DNA of 53,115 bases. It comes from an uncultured Bacteroidota bacterium. GTDB lineage: Bacteria; Bacteroidota; Bacteroidia; Bacteroidales; VadinHA17. Of the stretch, positions 4,254 through 43,273 are shown in pieces. A program made the position numbers and the translations under genes. A model generated the notes under the pieces. That model was not told where the DNA came from and searched no databases. It saw only the letters and a list, made by a program, of their open reading frames with translations. The first letter of the stretch is position 1, and each line of letters begins with the position of its first letter. Where the stretch lies: contig CAIMVD010000403.1 in NCBI GenBank assembly GCA_903844815.1, positions 1 to 53,115 of the forward strand, read 5' to 3'.

Positions 4254-5915
4254 CTATTTCTCTCTTCCTTCCCCCTGAGTTATAACATAATAATGGTCAG
4301 CAGGAACATTTTTTAAGATATCCGTTGTTCCATCAGCCCATCTGACTTCTATCAGGTCGGCTTTTATGAAAATTCCAAGACCTGCATGAATCCGGGGGTC
4401 ATTGTTCGAAAGGTAGGTGGTTGCAGGCTGATTGAAAAGCACCTGTTTTTTACCCCCGGATGTTATTGTCACTTTTGCGCCCAGGGCGGAAGCCGGACCT
4501 TTCTTCCCCTTTAATGTTATGCCAAGCCAGTGATTATTGCTGCCTCCGTCATTTTTGAGCAGTACAGGAGTTGCCTTTTTATCCAGATGGGAAACAATCA
4601 CATCAAGGTCACCGTCATTGTCTATGTCAACAGTAGCCAGGCCTCTGCCGGAACGTAAGGTTGAAAAATAATCACCATACAACTGCCCTGAGTTCTTAAA
4701 ATGACCCTTTCCGTCATTCTCAAGCAGTAACGGGTACTGCAGAATCAGTTCTTCAGCGGTACCATTTGCTGCTATAATATCGCGATCGCCGTCATTGTCA
4801 AAGTCGAAGAATTGCGCTCCCCAGCTGCTTCTCCCATTCATGGCTGCTGCTACTCCGCCAGCCTCGGTAACGTCGGTAAAAATTCCTTTTCCGGTGTTTT
4901 TATAGAGTGCGCCATAGTCGAGGTCTGTTACAAGCAGGTCGGTTAAGCCGTCGCCGTCGACATCGCCTATAGAACCATGCATAGATCCTGTTCCCTTTCC
5001 CTTGCTGTTGGCAGCAACACCTATTGCAACAGCTGTTTCGGTGTATTTGCCTTTGTCGTTCCGGAACATGTAATTCAGGTGGTGGTCATTTGCCTGAAAG
5101 ATATCAAGGTCGCCATCGTCGTCAAAGTCAAAGATGGTAAGGCCCATGCATTTTGAATCGGGAAAAAACAATCCCCTTTTTTCAGTAACATCGAGGAATT
5201 TACCATCGGGTTGCTGTTCATAGAGCATCGAGGCCTGACCCTTGTATTCGGCAGGGCTTGGCATCATATCGGGTGATCCGGGGGAGAAATACTTTGGATC
5301 GAATGCCAGAAAGTTTCCTACCATTGCATCAACCCGTCCATCGAGGTTATAATCCCAGAAAGCAACTCCTATGCTCCATTTTACAAAGCCGTTCAGTTTT
5401 TGGGGACCTGCCAGTCCAACCGATGAAGTTATATCAGTAAAAGTGCCGTTGCCATTGTTCCTGTAAAAAACATTAGGCCCATAGTTAAGCAGGTAAAGAT
5501 CCTGGTCACCATCATTGTCATAATCGACTGCGCCGGCGGCCATACTCCAGAAAGTGCCATTAAGTCCTGACTTTTCGGTTACGGAAGTAAATGTACCGTT
5601 TCCGTTATTCCTGTAGAGTTCGTTATGCGATTTGCTGAAGACTTTGCCATCGGGATCTGAAATACCTTCAAGGTAGGTGCCGTTCATCAGGAAAATATCC
5701 ATAAATCCATCATTGTTGTAATCAAAGATTGTAATGCCCGACCCGCTGCTTTCAATTATATTTTTGTAGGAATAGTCGCCAAAATTATATTTGAAATCGA
5801 TTCCGGCTTCTTTTGTGACATCCCTGAAAACGATACTTTTCTTTTGGGCCCCTGAAGCAAGCGGGATGGATATTAGTATGATGAGTAAAAAAAATATCTT
5901 TTCTTTATTTCTCAT
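4254..5915 (-). CDS. Secreted VCBS/FG-GAP repeat protein with C-terminal ASPIC/UnbV domain (CRTAC1-like)
   Basis: 553 residues with a cleavable signal peptide (about residues 1-23, ending ASGAQ). The body is a series of FG-GAP/VCBS repeats with calcium-binding DxDxDG-type loops (FDYNNDGFMD, VDYDNDGDQD, FDFDDDGDLD, VDIDNDGDLD), expected to form an integrin-like propeller. The last 110 residues are an ASPIC/UnbV domain (GAKVTITSGGK, NDPRIHAGLG, VRWADGT). The layout matches bacterial homologues of human CRTAC1, whose biochemical role is not established. Its start overlaps the stop of the TPR/VCBS gene by 11 bp, so they are translated from one message. Confidence 0.9.
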   Translation of the reverse strand: MRNKEKIFFLLIILISIPLASGAQKKSIVFRDVTKEAGIDFKYNFGDYSYKNIIESSGSGITIFDYNNDGFMDIFLMNGTYLEGISDPDGKVFSKSHNELYRNNGNGTFTSVTEKSGLNGTFWSMAAGAVDYDNDGDQDLYLLNYGPNVFYRNNGNGTFTDITSSVGLAGPQKLNGFVKWSIGVAFWDYNLDGRVDAMVGNFLAFDPKYFSPGSPDMMPSPAEYKGQASMLYEQQPDGKFLDVTEKRGLFFPDSKCMGLTIFDFDDDGDLDIFQANDHHLNYMFRNDKGKYTETAVAIGVAANSKGKGTGSMHGSIGDVDGDGLTDLLVTDLDYGALYKNTGKGIFTDVTEAGGVAAAMNGRSSWGAQFFDFDNDGDRDIIAANGTAEELILQYPLLLENDGKGHFKNSGQLYGDYFSTLRSGRGLATVDIDNDGDLDVIVSHLDKKATPVLLKNDGGSNNHWLGITLKGKKGPASALGAKVTITSGGKKQVLFNQPATTYLSNNDPRIHAGLGIFIKADLIEVRWADGTTDILKNVPADHYYVITQGEGREK

Positions 5916-8900
5916 TGCCGGAATTAGTTTTCAATGCGTTTCTGTAACTATCCTGTGTAACTACCCTTGTGTTGTATTGGCGATTATATTTCTCCAGCTC
6001 AGGGTCATTGGGGTACTTATCATCAGCTGAAGGCGGATAGCTTTTCATCCCGTGGAAAGGAAGAGGCATCACCGTACTTCCCAGCGCAGTGTTAATATCA
6101 CCGTCCTTTACCCAGCCGACGCTGTGAATGAGGAAATCTCTTTTCCATCCTTTTTTCAGCTCAGGCAATTCTGTTGCGTTGAATAAAACTGAGGTCTCAT
6201 CGCCAGCATTTGAGATGATATATTTATTGTCCGATTCGGTGAGAAGGGATAATACATCACCATAGCGTGTATAGTTACCCGAGAGGTCGCGCCATCTTGT
6301 ATTTTTATCAACATTTGAGTAATCGAACCAGTGCGGACCGTAACGTCCGCCTTTTCTGAAACTGCCCGAAAAGCCCCTGTAATGAATGTCTGCTGAAGTG
6401 GGATCAAGTGTAGTTGCAGTTACCGCTTTGTCGACAACAGCGCCGGAGAAAAATATATAATCCCAGTAAACCTCCATATTGGTCCTGATTCTTATCCTGT
6501 GATCGGCTGAAAGGAATTTTCCGGAAAGATCTGCAACAACGTTCTTATCCTTACCCATTGGAAATCCAAGGTTGTCGATAACTGTCACCCATTCCCCTTT
6601 CTTATTGACTACCTGAATTACCGGAGGTGAAACTTTAAGGTCAGGCGATTGTGAGATTGCAGCATTAATGCTTGCATCTGTCGGGAAGATCCACCCATTT
6701 AGAAAAATGAATAGTGTTCCATTGCTGCCTGTTTTTCCGGGATCCAGGATGAGGTCATGCATTTCAGTGGTTCCCTGGTATTTATCAGGGTTGAAGTCCG
6801 AAACATATTTATCGTCCTTTTCTGATATTAAATCAAGCACATCATTCCCATTGTTATCCATAGCAGATACCGGAAGATTTTTTTCCTCTACCTGGATGAT
6901 TTTCATTCCGGGGAAGGGTGGTGGGGAGAACTGTTCGGCGACGAAGATATCCGTTGATTCGGGATGGTCTACGGCCACCAGCTGAAGTTTGTCGAGGTAA
7001 ATTGTTTCCCAGAGTTCAGAGGTGATCTGTACCGGGTAGCTGCCGTCCTTCACCTTAAGCGATTCTCCCTTAATCTTAATATAGTCATCAGAAGCGTCGG
7101 CAAAGGCGTAAGCCCGGGTTCCTCCCATTATTCCAAGGGGCATGCCGAGTGCGCTTCTCCACAGAATATCCTTTGAAAACACATACCCGTCTCCATCCCA
7201 GGTATACAGGAACGGGCAGGAACCCTTGAGAGTCTGAGCCTCAATAAGAGACTGATCAGCGCCGGGAAGGAAGATGTTCTGGGGTACGCCGTTGGTCCAG
7301 GTAATTCTGATTATGTCGGCTATTGATCTGTTCCCAAGACCGAAGTGAATTTCAGGATCTGTCACAACTATTGACTGGTAGAGATCTCCGGAACGCATTT
7401 CAACCTTGGCGCCGATACCAAAATAGTTGTTTTTAGTGCTTCCTGCCCTAAGTCCGACAAGTTTCATCTTGATGAAATGGTTTGAGTTTCCACCGTCGTT
7501 TCGGAGCAGAAAGATTCCGCCTTCAGCTCCGGCAATTACAACATCGATGTCACCATCGTCATTGTAATCAAATACTGCAATTTCCCTTCCTGAAGTGACG
7601 TTTACAGGCAAAATCTGCGAAACATCGGTAAAGTTACCCTTAGTATCGTTATGATAAAGGAAAAGGCCCCTGTTCCCCTTTGTTTCAGGCTGACCAACAA
7701 CCAGAAGATCGGAAAATCCGTCATTGTCGAAGTCGAGAAATCTGGCATCCAGGGCTTTCAGGCTCTTCGAAGAAGAGAACATTGATTCTGAATTCTTTTC
7801 AGGTTCAAAAGTACCGTCACCCTTGTTTTTGAATAATTTCTGTCCGCTGCCATTAGATGAAGTTATAAACAGGTCTGAAAATCCGTCATTATTGTAATCG
7901 CCCACAGATGCTGAAGATGATCCTCCTTCGCTTTTCAGTCCGCATTCAGCTGTAATATCCTTGAATACCCCCTGACGCTGATTAGAAAAGAGTAGGTTGC
8001 TGCCGTTCTCATTTGTAACAAACAAATCAATATCTCCATCGTCGTCGAAGTCAGCGAAGACGGCATCGGTACTCTTCAATCCACGGGCTGATAATCCCAT
8101 CTGATCAGCCTGTTCGGTGAAAGTGCCGTCTCCGTTGTTTCTGAACATCTGGTTTGCATCTGGTGCAGTTTCATACAGATCGAGATCACCGTCATGGTCA
8201 AAATCAAAAAACAATGCTTTGTTTCCCCCGGTTTTGACTCCCGCCTTTGCTTCATCGGTAACTTCGTCGAAAACTCCTTTTCCGGCATTCCTGTAGAGCA
8301 GATCTCCGCCCTCGCGGGCAATAAAAATATCAGGAAAGCCATCGTTGTCATAATCTGCAAATGAAGCTGAGGACTCATTCCCTGAGTGTTTCAATCCCTC
8401 ATCAGCAGACACATCCCTGAAGCGCCCCATATCGTTATTAAAGAGATAGTGTTTATATGAGGAAGATGCTTTATCGTAGCTGCCTGCATAGAGATCAATG
8501 TCTTCATCTCCGTCGTAATCAGCAACCTCAATGTGCGATATACTCCTGGCGTCGGGCTCATCAGAGACTAATACATCAAGTCCTGCCGATGAAGTAACGT
8601 CGGTAAACTTAATAATATCAAGAAGCGACCTGTTGTCTGCTTCAAGGGAGGAAGATTTCTGATCGAAAGTTATCAGCGGAAAACCGATAAGCGATCCTCC
8701 GGGGCCCTTAAGATCCATAATGCCAGCCTGATATGGAGATGTTACCTTCAGGTAGTTATGAAAAATGGTAAACTGGATTACAGCATTTTCTTTATCTTTC
8801 TTTTTTAACAGGCTTAATGTTTTATCGAAGAAGGGGATGGCTTCCTTAGGAAATTCAGGGAACTGTTTATGAATAACTTCGAGCTGTTCCAGAGCTTTAT

Positions 8901-37473: not shown

Positions 37474-38223
37474 TTATTGTGCAACAAACTGGTAAGTCAG
37501 GGTACCCCTTTGGATTTTTGGGGCATTCACATCGGAGTTGAACCTCGAGATTGCAGCCGAGTTGACAGCCGTTTCTACAAGACAGGGATCGGAAGTTGTG
37601 CTCTTGTCTTCAATTATTGTTACCTTTTCAACATTTCCCTTCTGATCAACTTCGATGTACATAACAACGGTTCCGGAACCCTGGCATTTGTAGATTGGAA
37701 TCGGAAGATAGAGGTGGTTTCTTCCCGAGAGATCATAATATATTCTTGTTGGTCCCTGGTAATTGGCAGCCATTTTCACAGCGTCCTCTTTTTTATTGTC
37801 GCTTTTCTTCTTAGGTGTGACCACTTCATTATCGGTCTTTACCTCAGCATTGTTATCTTCCTGCTTTTTTTGCTCGTCAATATAATTGTCGGTACCCAGT
37901 TTCCCGCTTTTGATCAGTTCTTCCTTTACCCTGTCGATATAATCTGCTGCATTAATCTTTTCAGCCGGTTTATTTGCCAGATTTCTGGCGATATTAAGCA
38001 TCTCTTTGTCACCATTCAGAATTGTTTCAACGGTTGTTTGAGTTTTCTCCGGGGCTTGCAGTTTGACTTCCTGGATCTTTTCAGGAACATATTCTACTTC
38101 AAATTCGCCTGAGCGGGTTGTCTGCAGCGATCGCAGCTGAAAAAGCATGAAGATGATACCAGCAATAAGGTGGATTATTACAGCTCCCAGAATGGCGGTG
38201 ATCCGGCGGTCGTACTTTTTCAT
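37474..38223 (-). CDS. TonB-family energy transducer
   Basis: 249 residues. A single N-terminal membrane helix (TAILGAVIIHLIAGIIFMLF) is followed by a charged, lysine- and glutamate-rich linker that spans the periplasm and a C-terminal TonB-like domain of about 80 residues (GSGTVVMYIEVDQKGNVEKV, then LVETAVNSAAISRFNSD). It would pass proton-motive force from ExbB/ExbD to outer-membrane receptors such as the SusC at 22251, but no exbB or exbD is in the window. The Cys pair in IYKCQG and SDPCLVE may form a disulfide. It is convergent with the SRAP gene across the heptamer array. Confidence 0.83.
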   Translation of the reverse strand: MKKYDRRITAILGAVIIHLIAGIIFMLFQLRSLQTTRSGEFEVEYVPEKIQEVKLQAPEKTQTTVETILNGDKEMLNIARNLANKPAEKINAADYIDRVKEELIKSGKLGTDNYIDEQKKQEDNNAEVKTDNEVVTPKKKSDNKKEDAVKMAANYQGPTRIYYDLSGRNHLYLPIPIYKCQGSGTVVMYIEVDQKGNVEKVTIIEDKSTTSDPCLVETAVNSAAISRFNSDVNAPKIQRGTLTYQFVAQ

Positions 38224-38315
38224 ACGGCGAAATTATAAATTATTCCTATAATCATAAGGAAAGCACTTCCAATAATGAAAAGGGTTGTGATTTCTGAGAA
38301 TAGCAATATCAGACT

Positions 38316-39632
38316 CTAAAAGTTCCCGTATATACTCAAACCTCCGCTAAAATACTGGTGCTTAAGATGCTCATATACAAGATTTGTTTTCAGGTCAACA
38401 TCATCCGTCTGATAGGTGGGATAAGGCAATAACTCAAACAGGGTCTTACTAACCCTGTTGAAAACGGCAGCTGCTGTCACCGATTTATCAGCACTCTGCT
38501 CGACTTTCAGTTTTTCCTTTTTAAGTTCATCGAGTAATTCAATTGCAATCTTCCGGATCTTCTTCTTCTCGGATTCGGATAATTCAGGTTTCCTGATAAT
38601 GTCGAAAATCGCCTTCTGTTCCTCTGTTAGGCCTTCTCGTTTGGTTTCCGCTTCTTCGGCCGACAGCGAATTCACAAAATCAATCAGCCTCTTAAATGTC
38701 TCCTCGATCGTAACAGAATCCTTTCCACTGTTGTATGCATCTATGATTTCCTGGTAACGATGATAAAAATCCACCCTGAGCGGGTTCCTTTCAACCATCT
38801 GTTTCAGTTGTTTCTCTACCCTATCTTTCAACGATTGAACAGCAGTGAGTTTATCGAGTGCAATAAACATCGCTTTCCCCTTGTAACCCCTGTTGCAGAA
38901 ATGCCACACAACATCTTTCGCAATTGAATCGAGCCTCTTATGTGAAGTAAGGATCGGGTATTCCCTTGCAAACAACTGCTCCAGCCTGCTTCGCTGATCG
39001 CTGTCGAGCTCTTCGTTTTCTGCATCAATCACTGCCCTTATCTGTTCGGTAATTACCGGATTTTTCAAACCAAGATATTCACCCCTGTTCTCATAATACA
39101 AGGGAACAGTGGCGCCATCATCAACACTTCGTTTAAAATCGTAACGCGAAACATAATCGCCGAAAATTCTTCTCGTCAGTTTATCATCTTTAAACAGCGG
39201 AGTACCGGTAAAGCCAATGAATGAGGCATTCGGAAGGGCGTTCCTGAGATTCATTGCAAGTTGACCGCCCTGAGTACGGTGAGTCTCATCCGAAATGACA
39301 ATTATGTTTTCGCGGCCGATTATCTCTTCCTCAAAATTAAACTTATAAATGAGAGTAAAGAGGTACCTGTTCTCAGTACCAAGCAGCTCCTTCAGATGAG
39401 TGCCGCTTGATGCCTTCAGCGAATGACGGCCTCCTGACTTTATCCTGGGAACAGCCCCTGCTCCGCTGAATGTGCCATAGATCTGGGTATCGAGTTCGTT
39501 CCGCTCGGTAACTATCAGAAAAGTATAACTGCCTGTAAACTTCCGGTGGATTTTCTGGGCGAAGAAAACCATTGAATACGATTTTCCGCTTCCCTGGGTA
39601 TGCCAGAATACCCCCAGCTTTTGAGGCTGCAA
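38316..39632 (-). pseudogene. hsdR: Type I restriction enzyme R subunit, 3' remnant with internal deletion
   Basis: 438 codons. It begins abruptly at the Walker A region (GVFWHTQGSGKS, P-loop at about 12-18) with motif II DETH at 115-118 and GFTGTP at about 140-145. The N-terminal nuclease domain is missing and there is only a chance TTG at the start. After KGKAMFIALDKLTAV the frame goes straight to KDRVEKQLKQMVERNP, so the usual segment with FDAP and the motif VI arginine finger (QAIARxNR type) is absent; the fusion point is near 38840. The frame overlaps the abiEii 3' end in another reading phase. A working restriction enzyme is very unlikely. Confidence 0.85.
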
Positions 39633-40512
39633 TTAGCATATCTAACCTTGTAAAACGTTTGTTCCCCGGCAGGAAGGAATTCAGAGCAGCCATGCCCTTC
39701 TCAAAAACCCTGTACTTACCTCGCTTCCCTGAATCTGTTATCTTGTTGAAAAAGCCCCAGGAAAATAAAAAAGCAGTATCACGTATATCATTATAGACAT
39801 CATCAATTATAATCTTATAATCATCAAGATATGAAATCTCAAGTTCTGCTGAAATTTTAAATGTATCTGAGACAATGCTTATATCTCTTTCAGAATCAAT
39901 AAGCATATCAATGTCATAAAGCTGCTTAGCCATACTTAGATGTTTCCCTGATGCATAGGTTACCCCAATTGTATCAGGTGCAAAAGCCGTCAGTTTATCT
40001 CCAAGAAGAGAGTTCAGTCCAGGAGTTTTAACGATTAGAGGATCACCTTCATTTTTCATAGAAGGAATTTTTACAGATCTTTCTACGATTTCGGGAAAAA
40101 CCGGTTTTTCTTGAAGAACATCAAGCAGAATGTACTTTTCGTTTCCCGACAAATCAGAATGAAAAAACAGAAAATAGTGAGCTTTAGGAATCTTTCCGGT
40201 GTAACTCCTTTTAGTATCCAGTTGCCAACGGGTGAAATGGGATTCGAAGCAGATTATTGAAAGTATCTCTTCAAGTTCCTCACGAGTAGTCCCGGTAACA
40301 ATATCTATATCCGTCGAAAGTCGTTTAATATCAGGAAAATGAAGCATGAGGGAGCTCCCTCCTTTAAAAACAAAATCAAGTTTATGAAGTGACAACTGCT
40401 CAAGTAAGCCAATAGCATAAAATGCAAATTCTAATATCTCCGGACTTGTATTGCCCATCTTTTTGCTCTGTGCGAAGATCCATTCTTTACTATATGACTG
40501 AGCTGAGATCAT
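39373..40512 (-). CDS. abiEii: AbiEii-type nucleotidyltransferase toxin, 3' end fused out of frame to hsdR
   Basis: 379 codons, of which about the first 295 are AbiEii/AbiGii-like. The nucleotidyltransferase core is clear: GGSS at 51-54, DxD at D68/D70 (LSTDIDIV) and GDKLTAF at 171-177 with likely K173. These toxins transfer nucleotides and stop growth of phage-infected cells. Downstream of about codon 297 (RLDMLIAASKA) the reading changes to the wrong frame of hsdR DNA, giving a meaningless tail of some 80 residues (LRPENPPEVYRQLYF and on). Whether the toxin still works is open. It starts 5 bp after the antitoxin stop. Confidence 0.85.
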   Translation of the reverse strand: MISAQSYSKEWIFAQSKKMGNTSPEILEFAFYAIGLLEQLSLHKLDFVFKGGSSLMLHFPDIKRLSTDIDIVTGTTREELEEILSIICFESHFTRWQLDTKRSYTGKIPKAHYFLFFHSDLSGNEKYILLDVLQEKPVFPEIVERSVKIPSMKNEGDPLIVKTPGLNSLLGDKLTAFAPDTIGVTYASGKHLSMAKQLYDIDMLIDSERDISIVSDTFKISAELEISYLDDYKIIIDDVYNDIRDTAFLFSWGFFNKITDSGKRGKYRVFEKGMAALNSFLPGNKRFTRLDMLIAASKAGGILAYPGKRKIVFNGFLRPENPPEVYRQLYFSDSYRAERTRYPDLWHIQRSRGCSQDKVRRPSFAEGIKRHSSEGAAWY

Positions 40513-40517
40513 TCTGG

Positions 40518-41264
40518 TTAATGAAGGTTAATATTTTTCATGTAATCTGCAATCTCATTATTCTTTCCCCTGCGACGGGAATAGTTAATCAGGGTGGATT
40601 TGTTTACCTGGTATTTTTTAAAAACATTCAGCCAGATATTTTCAAGTTCCTCTCCCTGGAATGAAACAAAAAGCTCCTTCTCACAGAAAAGATCAACCAG
40701 CATTTTCTCAATTGAGGGAAGATGGTCATTAAACTTATGGAAAGGTGATTTGGTTATCAATGCTTTTATAATAAATGTTAACTGAGAGTTGCCGGTATAT
40801 AATTCTATTATTTTGGCATCGGGTTTAAAATACAGCTCCTTAAATTTTCTTTCCTTCAAAAAGAAAAATACACTTTCAGCAATTATTTCTTCCGGTTCTA
40901 TTATTATAAGTTTTCTGAAAGCCTGAAGGTTTGTGAATTCATTTAGCCAGGATGTGTCCCATATTAAAAAATCACCATGAACAAATTGTTTTATGATCAG
41001 TTGTTCCACTTTTTTTGCATCCTGAAAAATTGTTGGTTGCCATACAGGTTTAGGAGAGAAAGTATAACGATCACCTCCAACGACAGCTATCAGACCTTTT
41101 CTTTTAAGCTGAAAAATTCTGGCATATACCGCATTATCATTTATACCAGGAACAGTAATTTTGTAATATTCTTTAATTTCCCTAACGTCTACCTCACTCC
41201 TGCCTTTAAAATGTTCAAGAATACGTTCAGATGGTTTATTGTTATGTAATTTTTTTGTTTTCAT
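40518..41264 (-). CDS. abiEi: AbiEi-like antitoxin and autorepressor (DUF6577-type)
   Basis: 248 residues from the ATG at 41264; the frame extends 13 codons upstream, but those cross the promoter region. The N-terminal 65 residues form a winged-helix-like domain (SERILEHFKGRSEVDVREIKEYY kind of helix layout, then RIFQLKRKGLIAVVGGDRYTF), and a C-terminal domain ends in lysine- and asparagine-rich residues. In characterised AbiE systems this protein neutralises AbiEii and binds inverted repeats in its own promoter. The operator at 41281-41332 agrees. The gene is AT-richer in feel than its neighbours, in keeping with acquisition by transfer. Confidence 0.82.
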   Translation of the reverse strand: MKTKKLHNNKPSERILEHFKGRSEVDVREIKEYYKITVPGINDNAVYARIFQLKRKGLIAVVGGDRYTFSPKPVWQPTIFQDAKKVEQLIIKQFVHGDFLIWDTSWLNEFTNLQAFRKLIIIEPEEIIAESVFFFLKERKFKELYFKPDAKIIELYTGNSQLTFIIKALITKSPFHKFNDHLPSIEKMLVDLFCEKELFVSFQGEELENIWLNVFKKYQVNKSTLINYSRRRGKNNEIADYMKNINLH

Positions 41265-41280
41265 TGTATTACCTTCAATA

Positions 41281-41332
41281 CAAAGATATATAAGATAAGA
41301 CAATAAACAAGCATTACTGTCTTATCTTATAT
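41281..41332 (-). promoter_or_regulatory. abiE promoter with overlapping 15-bp perfect inverted-repeat operator
   Basis: On the minus strand TTG (41310-41308) is followed after exactly 19 bases by TATCTTTG (41288-41281), a canonical Bacteroidetes promoter. Two exact 15-bp arms, ATATAAGATAAGACA (41288-41302) and TGTCTTATCTTATAT (41318-41332), are separated by a 15-base spacer that contains the -33 box; the inner arm fills the space down to the -7 box. A repressor bound there would block polymerase, as known for AbiEi autoregulation. Confidence 0.85.
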
Positions 41333-41416
41333 TTTATTAATTCTCATTTTTAAATTGTCAATAGTGTCAATTGCTGTTTGTTCAATGAGATTGTCTTCGG
41401 AGTATTCCCAGGTCAT
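41327..41416 (-). pseudogene. hsdR: hsdR 5' remnant (start codon and about 17 codons)
   Basis: An ATG at 41416 opens MTWEYSEDNLIEQTAID, which reads like the usual N-terminus of type I restriction R subunits (WEYSEDxLxEQTAI). After Asp17 it diverges into TIDNLKMRINKI and stops at 41327, inside the abiE operator. Together with the remnant at 38316-39632 on the same strand it brackets the abiE genes, indicating that hsdR was interrupted by them. Confidence 0.6.
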
Positions 41417-41418
41417 AG

Positions 41419-41502
41419 TTATCCAAATAGTGATGGTTTAATAGCATCATTCAGTTCAAATTTAGCAGGTTTCCCGTGTATATTCTCATCCCCAATATTT
41501 AT
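41419..41502 (-). pseudogene. C-terminal fragment of an unidentified gene just upstream of hsdR
   Basis: 27 codons after a stop read DENIHGKPAKFELNDAIKPSLFG and then TAA, 2 bp before the hsdR start. The spacing is that of an operon, and the composition looks protein-like, so this may be the tail of the gene that preceded hsdR. I cannot name it. No start codon or longer frame remains. Confidence 0.3.
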
Positions 41503-41526
41503 TTACTGTTCCCGATACTTATATTA

Positions 41527-41613
41527 TTAATAACCATATCTGTATTCAAGGTACTTTAGCCAGTCATTAAACTCCCCGTTTGTCTGATTATTTCTCACAA
41601 AAGCAACCCATTG
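41527..41613 (-). pseudogene. Second C-terminal fragment, cut off by the 41.6-kb repeat
   Basis: The minus strand reads WVAFVRNNQTNGEFNDWLKY, then LEYRYGY and a TAA at 41527. It looks like real coding sequence, with its upstream end replaced by the repeat that begins at 41613. The family is not recognised. It probably belongs to the same broken restriction locus. Confidence 0.3.
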
Positions 41614-41749
41614 ATGACGCGGATTTTCAAACGCGGATAAAACGGATCAAAAAATAATCCGTGCAAATCAGCGTTGCTCCGCATCCGCGTCATCCGCGTT
41701 CCATTTTAATCAGCATTGCCCCGCATCCGCGTCATCAGCGTTCTATTTT
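41613..41749. repeat. Intergenic repeat: tandem 42-bp units plus inverted arm
   Basis: Two adjacent 42-bp units (41666-41707 and 41708-41749) differ at 4 positions and share the core CCGCATCCGCGTCAT. Upstream, GATGACGCGGAT (41613-41624) is the exact reverse complement of 41683-41694, and ACGGAT/ATCCGT (41642-41647, 41657-41662) make an inner hairpin. It can fold into a long stem. The rest of the gap to 41875 shows no gene. Confidence 0.88.
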
Positions 41750-41875
41750 TAAGGCAATAGTAATTCATGGAATTATTACCTTTGCATTTCTGTTTATAAG
41801 CTTTTATAGTTTCCCGTTTCGTCGTTTATAACCGAATTCATTGTCTAGTTATTTTAAATTGTTTATCCAGCTATT

Positions 41876-42454
41876 ATGAGAGAAGAACTTATTCTTGAGG
41901 TTATTAAAGAGAGATGGAGCCCCGTCGCCTTCTCCCCGGCACCCATTGAAGAGTATAAACTTAAAGCCATGTTTCAGGCTGCAAGTCATGCTCCTTCGTG
42001 CAATAACGATCAGCCATGGATGTTCGTGTATACCACTGCCGGTGAAACTGATTCCTTTAATGATTACCTTGGATTTATGGCTGAAGGCAACAGGATCTGG
42101 GCTCAAAACGCTTATGCCATCATCATCTGCCTCGCCCGTACAAAATTCTCGTTCAACGGCAATCCGAACAGGTTCTCATTTTATGATACGGGAATGGCAG
42201 TCGCAAACATGCTCGTTCAGGCCCAGTCGATGGATGTTTTTGCGCATCAGATGGCCGGATTTTCGGTGCAGAAGGTTAAGGAGTACTTGAAGCTTACTGA
42301 TGAAATTGAACCGGTTACAATGATAGCAATCGGTTCCCTGGGAGATGGGTCAAATCTTTCACCTGAAATTTTGAAAAGAGACGAAAAAAGAAGACCAAGA
42401 AAATCAATGAATGAGATAGTTTTCAGAAATACCCTTTCAAATCCTGCATTTTAG
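41876..42454 (+). CDS. Nitroreductase-family FMN oxidoreductase
   Basis: 192 residues, cytosolic. The FMN-binding start (ERWSPVAFSPAPIEEYKLKA, then AASHAPSCNNDQPWMFV) and the mid-region YDTGMAVANMLVQAQSM followed by IGSLGD are typical of the family. It should use NAD(P)H to reduce nitroaromatics, quinones or flavins; the physiological substrate is not clear. It stands alone between the 41.6-kb repeat region and a convergent gene, so there is no operon context. Confidence 0.92.
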   Translation: MREELILEVIKERWSPVAFSPAPIEEYKLKAMFQAASHAPSCNNDQPWMFVYTTAGETDSFNDYLGFMAEGNRIWAQNAYAIIICLARTKFSFNGNPNRFSFYDTGMAVANMLVQAQSMDVFAHQMAGFSVQKVKEYLKLTDEIEPVTMIAIGSLGDGSNLSPEILKRDEKRRPRKSMNEIVFRNTLSNPAF

Positions 42455-42526: not shown

Positions 42527-43273
42527 TTATTTCTTTTCCGAAGTTTTTTTCTTCTTCACGACCTTCGCTTTGACAGGCTTGTTGAATTTCTGATTTTTAA
42601 ACAATCCATGCTTGACACCGTTAATAAACTTGGCCCAGGCGAAAGGATTCAGAAGGTTGTTGACAGGATATTGGTTGCGCGTAGCCATTGAGCTGAAATT
42701 CTGTTCCATGGCATATTTGTAGCCTGCCTCGGGGGAGACTGTCATGTTACTCTGATTGGCTATGGCAACATAGATTGAAGCAATGTTGTCATTCATATTT
42801 TCAATGATGGGATCGACAGGACGCTCTCTTGTCATATCCTTAATAAATTCGTTGTAGCTCTTCCAGGGAAAGATATTGATCTCCGAAATTGCAATTGTAT
42901 CGGCTTCAAGAACTATATCAACGGTGCAGTGTTTGTCGGGAAAATCGTTGGGAATTATTGTATGGTATCTTTTGTAGCCCAAAGCCCTGAAGAAAACGGT
43001 ATCTCCCGGGGCGCTGGTAATAGAATATATGCCGGTTTTCTCACTTACAGTGCCTCTTCGAAGTTTGTGTGATATAACCGCCGCACCCTGAACCGGTTGA
43101 TACCATTGATCGGTAATAAGCCCGCTAACCTGAACATACCTGCCCGGTTCCGTTGCCTGACCCAGCATCGTCTGAAAAGAGATGATAAGCAAGGTAATAA
43201 TGTATAATAATCGTCTCAATTGGAACCGTATAAATTTCCCGTAATACTCTAAATGGAACTGCAAAATAAACAT
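42527..43273 (-). CDS. Exported CarboxypepD_reg-like domain protein
   Basis: 248 residues. N-terminal hydrophobic signal (LLYIITLLIISFQTMLGQ), then an Ig-like carboxypeptidase regulatory-like domain (VSGLITDQWYQPVQGAAVIS, GIYSITSAPGDTVFFRALGY). The C-terminal half is helical and ends in a very basic tail (KPVKAKVVKKKKTSEKK). This type is common in Bacteroidetes with no known activity, often anchored in the envelope. It stands convergent to the nitroreductase gene and divergent from iorA. Confidence 0.75.
   Translation of the reverse strand: MFILQFHLEYYGKFIRFQLRRLLYIITLLIISFQTMLGQATEPGRYVQVSGLITDQWYQPVQGAAVISHKLRRGTVSEKTGIYSITSAPGDTVFFRALGYKRYHTIIPNDFPDKHCTVDIVLEADTIAISEINIFPWKSYNEFIKDMTRERPVDPIIENMNDNIASIYVAIANQSNMTVSPEAGYKYAMEQNFSSMATRNQYPVNNLLNPFAWAKFINGVKHGLFKNQKFNKPVKAKVVKKKKTSEKK

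Follow-up and report, generated by a model that had tools for sequence, protein, structure and literature searches.

The AbiE gene pair and the pieces of hsdR

We analysed a contig of 53,115 nucleotides (C403, the window) from an uncultured Bacteroidota bacterium, in which a gene pair of the AbiE toxin-antitoxin (TA) type lies between two pieces of hsdR, a gene of type I restriction-modification (RM). The original prediction, made from the DNA letters alone, had described an AbiE module nested inside a broken hsdR, with all parts on the minus strand. This arrangement is real, as shown by the match of the short N-terminal piece to HsdR, by the Pfam and PADLOC matches of the AbiE genes, and by the alignment to the intact HsdR of locus L036. 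The features are listed below.

41419-41475, minus strand: dprA-like 3' scrap (GKPAKFELNDAIKPSLFG*), which stops just before the start codon of the next feature
41366-41416, minus strand: hsdR codons 1-17, translation MTWEYSEDNLIEQTAID, most likely the upstream-repeat scar of a cassette insertion
41288-41332, no strand assigned: operator-like inverted repeat before abiEi, with 19-nt arms and a 7-nt loop
40518-41264, minus strand: abiEi-type antitoxin gene (DUF6577), which encodes 248 aa if read from ATG 41264; the open reading frame (ORF) reaches TTG 41303
39619-40512, minus strand: abiEii-type toxin gene, homologous part of about residues 1-299, from PADLOC and the alignment to L037
39373-39618, minus strand: tail of the AbiEii ORF, about residues 300-379, which is out-of-frame hsdR by alignment
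38845-39623, minus strand: hsdR, about codons 303-562, with Walker A and the first helicase lobe (PF18766)
38316-38845, minus strand: C-terminal part of hsdR, joined in frame after the loss of 337-338 codons

Both hsdR pieces were aligned to intact relatives, as the prediction had proposed. The translation of 41416-41366 is identical in 17 of 17 residues to codons 1-17 of the intact HsdR of L036, L047, L049, L034 and L087, which are several Bacteroidota records, and its 51 nt are 92% identical to the DNA of L047 over the full 51 nt (E 1e-13). The second piece begins at 39623, at about codon 303 and immediately before Walker A, and has 87% amino acid identity to L036 over 265 residues; the DNA of segment 38845-39623 is about 76% identical to L036, L047 and L049. 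The gene had been expected to run on from its Walker A region. It does resume there, and it ends at 38316 at the same C-terminus as its relatives, but it is not continuous: arithmetic on the alignment coordinates gives an in-frame gap of 337-338 codons at about 38845, with the short repeat CTGCxGT at the junction. Since codons 18-302 are absent from the window and these 337-338 further codons are gone, the gene does not encode an HsdR with a nuclease domain and both helicase lobes; it should be unable to yield a complete type I nuclease and is evidently dead. No match to PF02384 or PF01420, the hsdM and hsdS families, was found anywhere on the contig at E 0.001, and the hsdM/hsdS matches of the window's own genome lie on other contigs. 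That genome is rich in restriction genes, with 8 HSDR_N and 12 N6_Mtase matches, none of them on the contig of the window.

The abiEi ORF spans 40518-41303, with ATG 41264 as the likelier start, and its product matches Pfam DUF6577 (E 1e-58) and PADLOC AbiEi (E 4e-62). The abiEii ORF (39373-40512, 379 residues) follows on the same strand after 5 bp, so that the antitoxin-type gene stands directly before the toxin-type gene, and it matches PF08843 (E 2e-16) and, over residues 1-299, PADLOC AbiEii (E 7e-82). The closest AbiE relative is found in L037, where a homologous abiEi-abiEii pair, 70% identical in DNA over 1715 bp, overlaps the hsdR start by 4 bp. The two AbiEii proteins are 64% identical over 302 aligned residues. 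The prediction had not noticed that the toxin gene is truncated: the AbiEii of the window lacks the last 57 or so residues of the 357-residue L037 protein, including the conserved LNKL...YW region. The gene ends at the hsdR junction, and its ORF continues out of frame into hsdR. Residues G51-G52, D68, D70 and G171-D-K, which we take to be nucleotidyltransferase motifs, are retained and are invariant across 12 sequences. With these N-terminal residues kept and the conserved end gone, the clipped AbiEii is probably inactive, while the antitoxin gene and the operator-like repeat look intact today. The suggestion that one defence system had been exchanged for another is unsupported, because the toxin is clipped and the contig has no hsdM/hsdS match.

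An inverted-repeat operator before abiEi, with autoregulation, is a feature of AbiE systems. The core of the putative operator of the window is also present in L037, and similar repeats can be noticed in L088 and L153; a crude scan with approximate gene starts covered 32 related loci and found no such inverted repeat in 14 of them. The TATCTTTG box at 41288-41281 resembles the consensus of the Bacteroidota -7 element. An Rfam scan of 38000-42000 gave no family at gathering score. The window resembles the AbiE type IV TA system in its adjacent abiEi and abiEii genes, its conserved AbiEii residues and its inverted repeat before abiEi, and differs from it in that the antitoxin is a DUF6577 protein and the toxin lacks its C-terminal end. 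DUF6577 is listed in Pfam as a family of unknown function. An AbiEii match was found nearby in 24 of 30 fetched DUF6577 loci (L144-L173), 3 of the 24 being partial, and the two members that were scanned both match PADLOC AbiEi. Judging from these matches, DUF6577 is very probably an AbiEi-type antitoxin family. A second DUF6577-AbiEii locus, L171, lies on contig C133 of the window's own genome; its AbiEii frame matches over only about 120 residues and may be broken too.

Copies of the hsdR start upstream of hsdR

In several relatives, a truncated hsdR start, here called a scar, lies upstream of the full gene. Scars were sought by comparing 150-bp hsdR segments with the upstream DNA of the same locus. 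The first set comprised 80 loci, each with a relative of the hsdR piece; identity is 77-88% for 58 of these relatives and 41-56% for the other 22, and 70 of the loci had enough upstream DNA. The second and third sets came mostly from the phylum of the window, and all loci were selected by similarity to this hsdR. One sample consisted of 36 genome matches; the upstream DNA of 35 was used, and G467, whose match is without the N-terminus, was omitted. Another sample of genomes yielded the same 36 matches and no new ones. For the third set, the first start codon in frame was mechanically taken to be the hsdR start.

The first 150 bp of hsdR are repeated upstream in 6 of the 70 loci of the first set (L057, L066, L070, L084, L088 and L112, the last a betaproteobacterial record). 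A copy of the first segment was also found in 4 of 39 loci of the second set (L181, L207, L214 and L189, the last on the same contig as L088) and in 1 of 19 loci of the third (L231; 18 of the 19 are new, L215 being the contig of L091). The first two sets together give 9 of 108 loci. After removal of L189, L215 and L175, which is the contig of L076, all sets give 10 of 125 distinct contigs; the pairs L039/L070 and L050/L067, each near-identical around the hsdR start, were kept in this count. As a control, the loci of the first two sets were examined for their other genes, with a minimum length of 250 codons, and 1 of these 336 has an upstream copy of its own start. The corresponding Fisher value of 2.5e-5 was computed with 9/113, slightly off the corrected count. 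The sole control gene with a copy is a RhuM-like cargo gene at 7027 of L177, which lies shortly before hsdR and has a partial copy at 6228-6318.

The scar and the main hsdR copy form direct repeats of 35-505 bp with 75-97% identity. The beginning of a scar corresponds to codon 1 or lies no more than 10 nt from it, with two exceptions, the second, decayed scar of L214 and the scar of L084, which reaches 109 nt further upstream. For later hsdR segments, comparable copies are limited to L112 and L214, where the copy extends further into hsdR; other segments gave some weak and shorter matches, at E 5e-6 or worse. Transposition was considered and rejected as the source of the repeats, their length being too variable for the target duplication of an ordinary transposase.

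Some relatives have a cassette before an hsdR with its own start, and the hsdR 5' scar on the far side of the cassette. Eight of the ten scarred loci were scanned for defence models, L066 and L231 being outside the scan, and in seven of these the insert matches known or candidate systems. The inserts of L057 and L070 are three-gene cassettes of the PADLOC candidate PDC-M64, and that of L066 is a cassette of the PDC-M64 type, assigned by clustering of its last gene. L084 has RhuM/Fic (PDC-S23), L088 has AbiEi (DUF6577) between a 35-bp scar and hsdR, L112 has AAA/DUF4143 (PDC-S01), and L207 has Septu-like PtuA and PtuB. The insert of L181, an antisense HATPase/DUF4325 gene, has no PADLOC match, and that of L231 is a frame of about 100 codons. 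L214, on contig C309 of the window's own genome, holds PDC-M04 genes, then the decayed scar, then an HTH/ImmA-IrrE gene. Its two successive hsdR 5' scars (4575-4642 and 6135-6226) precede a single hsdR and are followed by different cargo, apparently two stacked insertions. The gene directly before hsdR also varies, as seen from similarity clusters over 70 loci: it is the last gene of the PDC-M64 cassette in 11, HsdS in 10, DprA in 7, McrC-like in 7, GmrSD-like in 6, RhuM/Fic in 4 and AbiEii-type in 3, and three pairs and 16 singles make up the rest. Some of these labels come from scanning a single member of a cluster and the others from reading the sequences.

One pair of loci shows the site with and without a cassette. 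L070 and L039 are 99.98% identical over 5578 bp, a match that ends exactly at the end of the 108-bp scar of L070, and 99.9% identical over the 5938 bp that begin with the hsdR start. The difference between them is a unit of 1624 bp in which the cassette lies. All 6 downstream mismatches fall at hsdR nt 3-30, and there the scar of L070 has the letters of L039, its single difference from L039 being at nt 105. The two loci are a near-isogenic filled/empty pair, a strong but not perfect one, and the pattern fits an insertion that brought a donor hsdR start, or an excision between the repeats. The pair shows the site with a single copy where the cassette is absent; for the window itself, no relative in that state was found. 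The hsdR genes at 7095 of L070 and at 7095 of L039 each have an early stop among the first ten codons, though not the same one, and that of L070 is also without its ATG.

The order in the window, which is the end of dprA, the scar, AbiE and hsdR, is the layout of L070 with a different cassette. The dprA end and the hsdR start are matched jointly over 63-110 bp, at 76-87%, in L043, L062, L078 and L081 among others. The dprA-like scrap has 75% amino acid identity over 20 residues (E 0.002), and the gene in L081 belongs to PF02481.

History of the locus

The recurrence of scars suggests that defence genes repeatedly insert at the hsdR start and leave a short copy of its beginning. We consider it likely that the window holds the remains of a type I RM island that was acquired horizontally, and that a defence cassette had docked at the hsdR start of this island; the 17 codons are most likely an insertion scar. 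The island would at first have had dprA directly before hsdR. An abiEi-abiEii cassette carrying its own hsdR 5' end would then have entered at the hsdR start, most simply by homologous recombination within hsdR at one end of the cassette and by an illegitimate join within the 5' end of the recipient's hsdR at the other. This would have kept hsdR whole and left the first 17 codons of the old copy upstream. A deletion of about 1.1 kb would later have taken the last 57 or so codons of abiEii together with hsdR codons 1-302 and fused abiEii to hsdR, a single event that would explain the lost end of one gene and the lost start of the other. Another deletion, between short repeats, would have removed the 337-338 codons in frame, and hsdM and hsdS would have been lost too. 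The parts, the empty site, the repeated occurrence of scars and one filled/empty pair were observed directly; how the recombination took place, and in what sequence the steps in the window followed each other, is inferred from them.

Several observations weigh against this history. The second hsdR 5' copy is not in the window, where only the upstream copy survives, so the duplication is not visible here. The scar of 51 bp is too short to date, and the junction of abiEii with hsdR gives no more than a hint of a short homology. L037, although the closest AbiE relative, shows no scar in the upstream-copy test, and 115 of the 125 contigs, chosen by HsdR similarity, are without one. AbiE is not usually a neighbour of hsdR, because hsdR lies no further than about 1.5 kb away in only one of the 30 fetched DUF6577 loci, namely L173, which is again the contig of L088. 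L039 and L070 are both metagenome assemblies in which hsdR starts with early stops, and this pair would fit excision between repeats equally well.

The prediction had instead read the layout as AbiE DNA that replaced several hundred bases of hsdR. Codons 18-302 are indeed missing, and one double illegitimate recombination could have put in their place a DNA fragment that held abiEi and an abiEii clipped beforehand. One event would then suffice for the present order of hsdR codons 1-17, AbiE and hsdR from about codon 303, and the window has no second 5' copy. However, replacement is not the best history given the scarred relatives: it leaves unexplained why abiEii ends at the hsdR junction without its conserved end, a clipping that would have to be a coincidence, why relatives have a scar, a cassette and an hsdR with its own start, and why the AbiE pair of L037 abuts the hsdR start. 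We find direct replacement unlikely, and retain it because the undeleted intermediate, with the scar, a full abiEii and hsdR codons 1-302, was not found among the related loci compared.

The scars in general could also be tandem duplications within one lineage, with cassettes landing between the copies later, a view that is compatible with the insertion history favoured for the window. It accounts for the direct repeats that were observed. However, the identity between scar and main copy is only that given above, at nt 3-30 the cassette-free locus agrees with the scar of L070 and not with the main copy there, and scars begin at or near codon 1 apart from the second scar of L214 and that of L084; we regard this origin as quite improbable. 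Finally, the 17 codons might have been left by an earlier deletion inside hsdR, decay of this kind being evident in the same gene, and AbiE might have come into the gap by an unrelated mobile route, but this has very little probability, as no transposase is found among the three main ORFs that were scanned in the island, which are abiEi, abiEii and hsdR, no long repeat flanks the AbiE pair in the window, and the coincidence with scars at other loci is left unexplained.

As for the insertion reading in its general form, we see about even chances that the hsdR start codon of type I restriction operons is a general docking site. TA and other defence cassettes would carry a stretch of the hsdR 5' end as homology arm and recombine homologously on one side only; the operon would still work afterwards, and every such entry would leave a truncated hsdR start. 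RM genes have reportedly been found by the Kobayashi group to insert with long target duplication. The likeness lies in an insert between direct repeats of variable length, with one copy in a gene that keeps its start. There, however, the RM unit is the insert, whereas here the restriction operon is the target, and what is inserted, repeatedly at the start of one gene, are TA or defence cassettes. That cargo repeatedly uses this type of insertion at the start of hsdR may be a new finding. Homology-facilitated illegitimate recombination occurs in natural transformation, and its one homologous and one illegitimate join would produce the mosaic seen here, with scars that vary in length.

Type I restriction operons are known to have defence genes embedded in them, and PADLOC candidate families are based on such guilt-by-embedding. 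The loci described here resemble them in having cargo directly before hsdR, often overlapping its start, and differ in the hsdR 5' scars, which suggest an entry route for the cargo. To our knowledge, the route by which defence genes become embedded in restriction operons is an open question. If scars are insertion footprints, they would reveal the insertion point, the polarity and the order of arrival, and any set of genomes could be tested for them directly by computation; the short 'orphan' starts of hsdR that appear in annotations would be footprints and not gene debris. If the docking-site reading is true, scars such as the two of L214 would record the order in which defence genes were stacked.

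Setting of the island

Two further features describe the surroundings.

38224-41875, no strand assigned: the whole foreign island, between a TonB-like gene and a nitroreductase gene
41527-41612, minus strand: 3' scrap of a PD-(D/E)XK nuclease gene of the REase-ARP family, a gene found upstream in L037

The TonB-like neighbour is present in 58 of 58 genomes of the genus, including the window's own, and loci were obtained for 30 of them, 29 from other genomes. The prediction had looked to related strains for an hsdR without AbiE genes at this site. No such ancestral hsdR was found: in all 29 same-genus loci (of 57 other genomes), there is no match to hsdR, abiEi or abiEii at E 1e-8 within flanks of about 1.5 kb. 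The TonB-like gene adjoins the nitroreductase gene in 14 of these loci and the next window gene after it (42527-43273) in 12, and in the remaining 3 (L121, L124 and L139) the far neighbour was not identified within the flank. Because the 29 loci have no hsdR or AbiE match, the acquisition looks specific to this lineage. The island is foreign and decayed. The best-scoring same-genus relative of the hsdR piece is 40% identical, too distant for junction analysis. Plasmid matches to the piece are all below 60% identity, and a search of viral contigs with intact HsdR gave no confirmed relative.

The PD-(D/E)XK scrap (PF22558) has 74% DNA identity over 86 bp, and 23 of its residues match the gene at 815-1828 of L037. 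Between the nitroreductase gene and the island scraps, segment 41666-41749 consists of two 42-nt tandem copies rich in CCGCATCCGCGTCATC.

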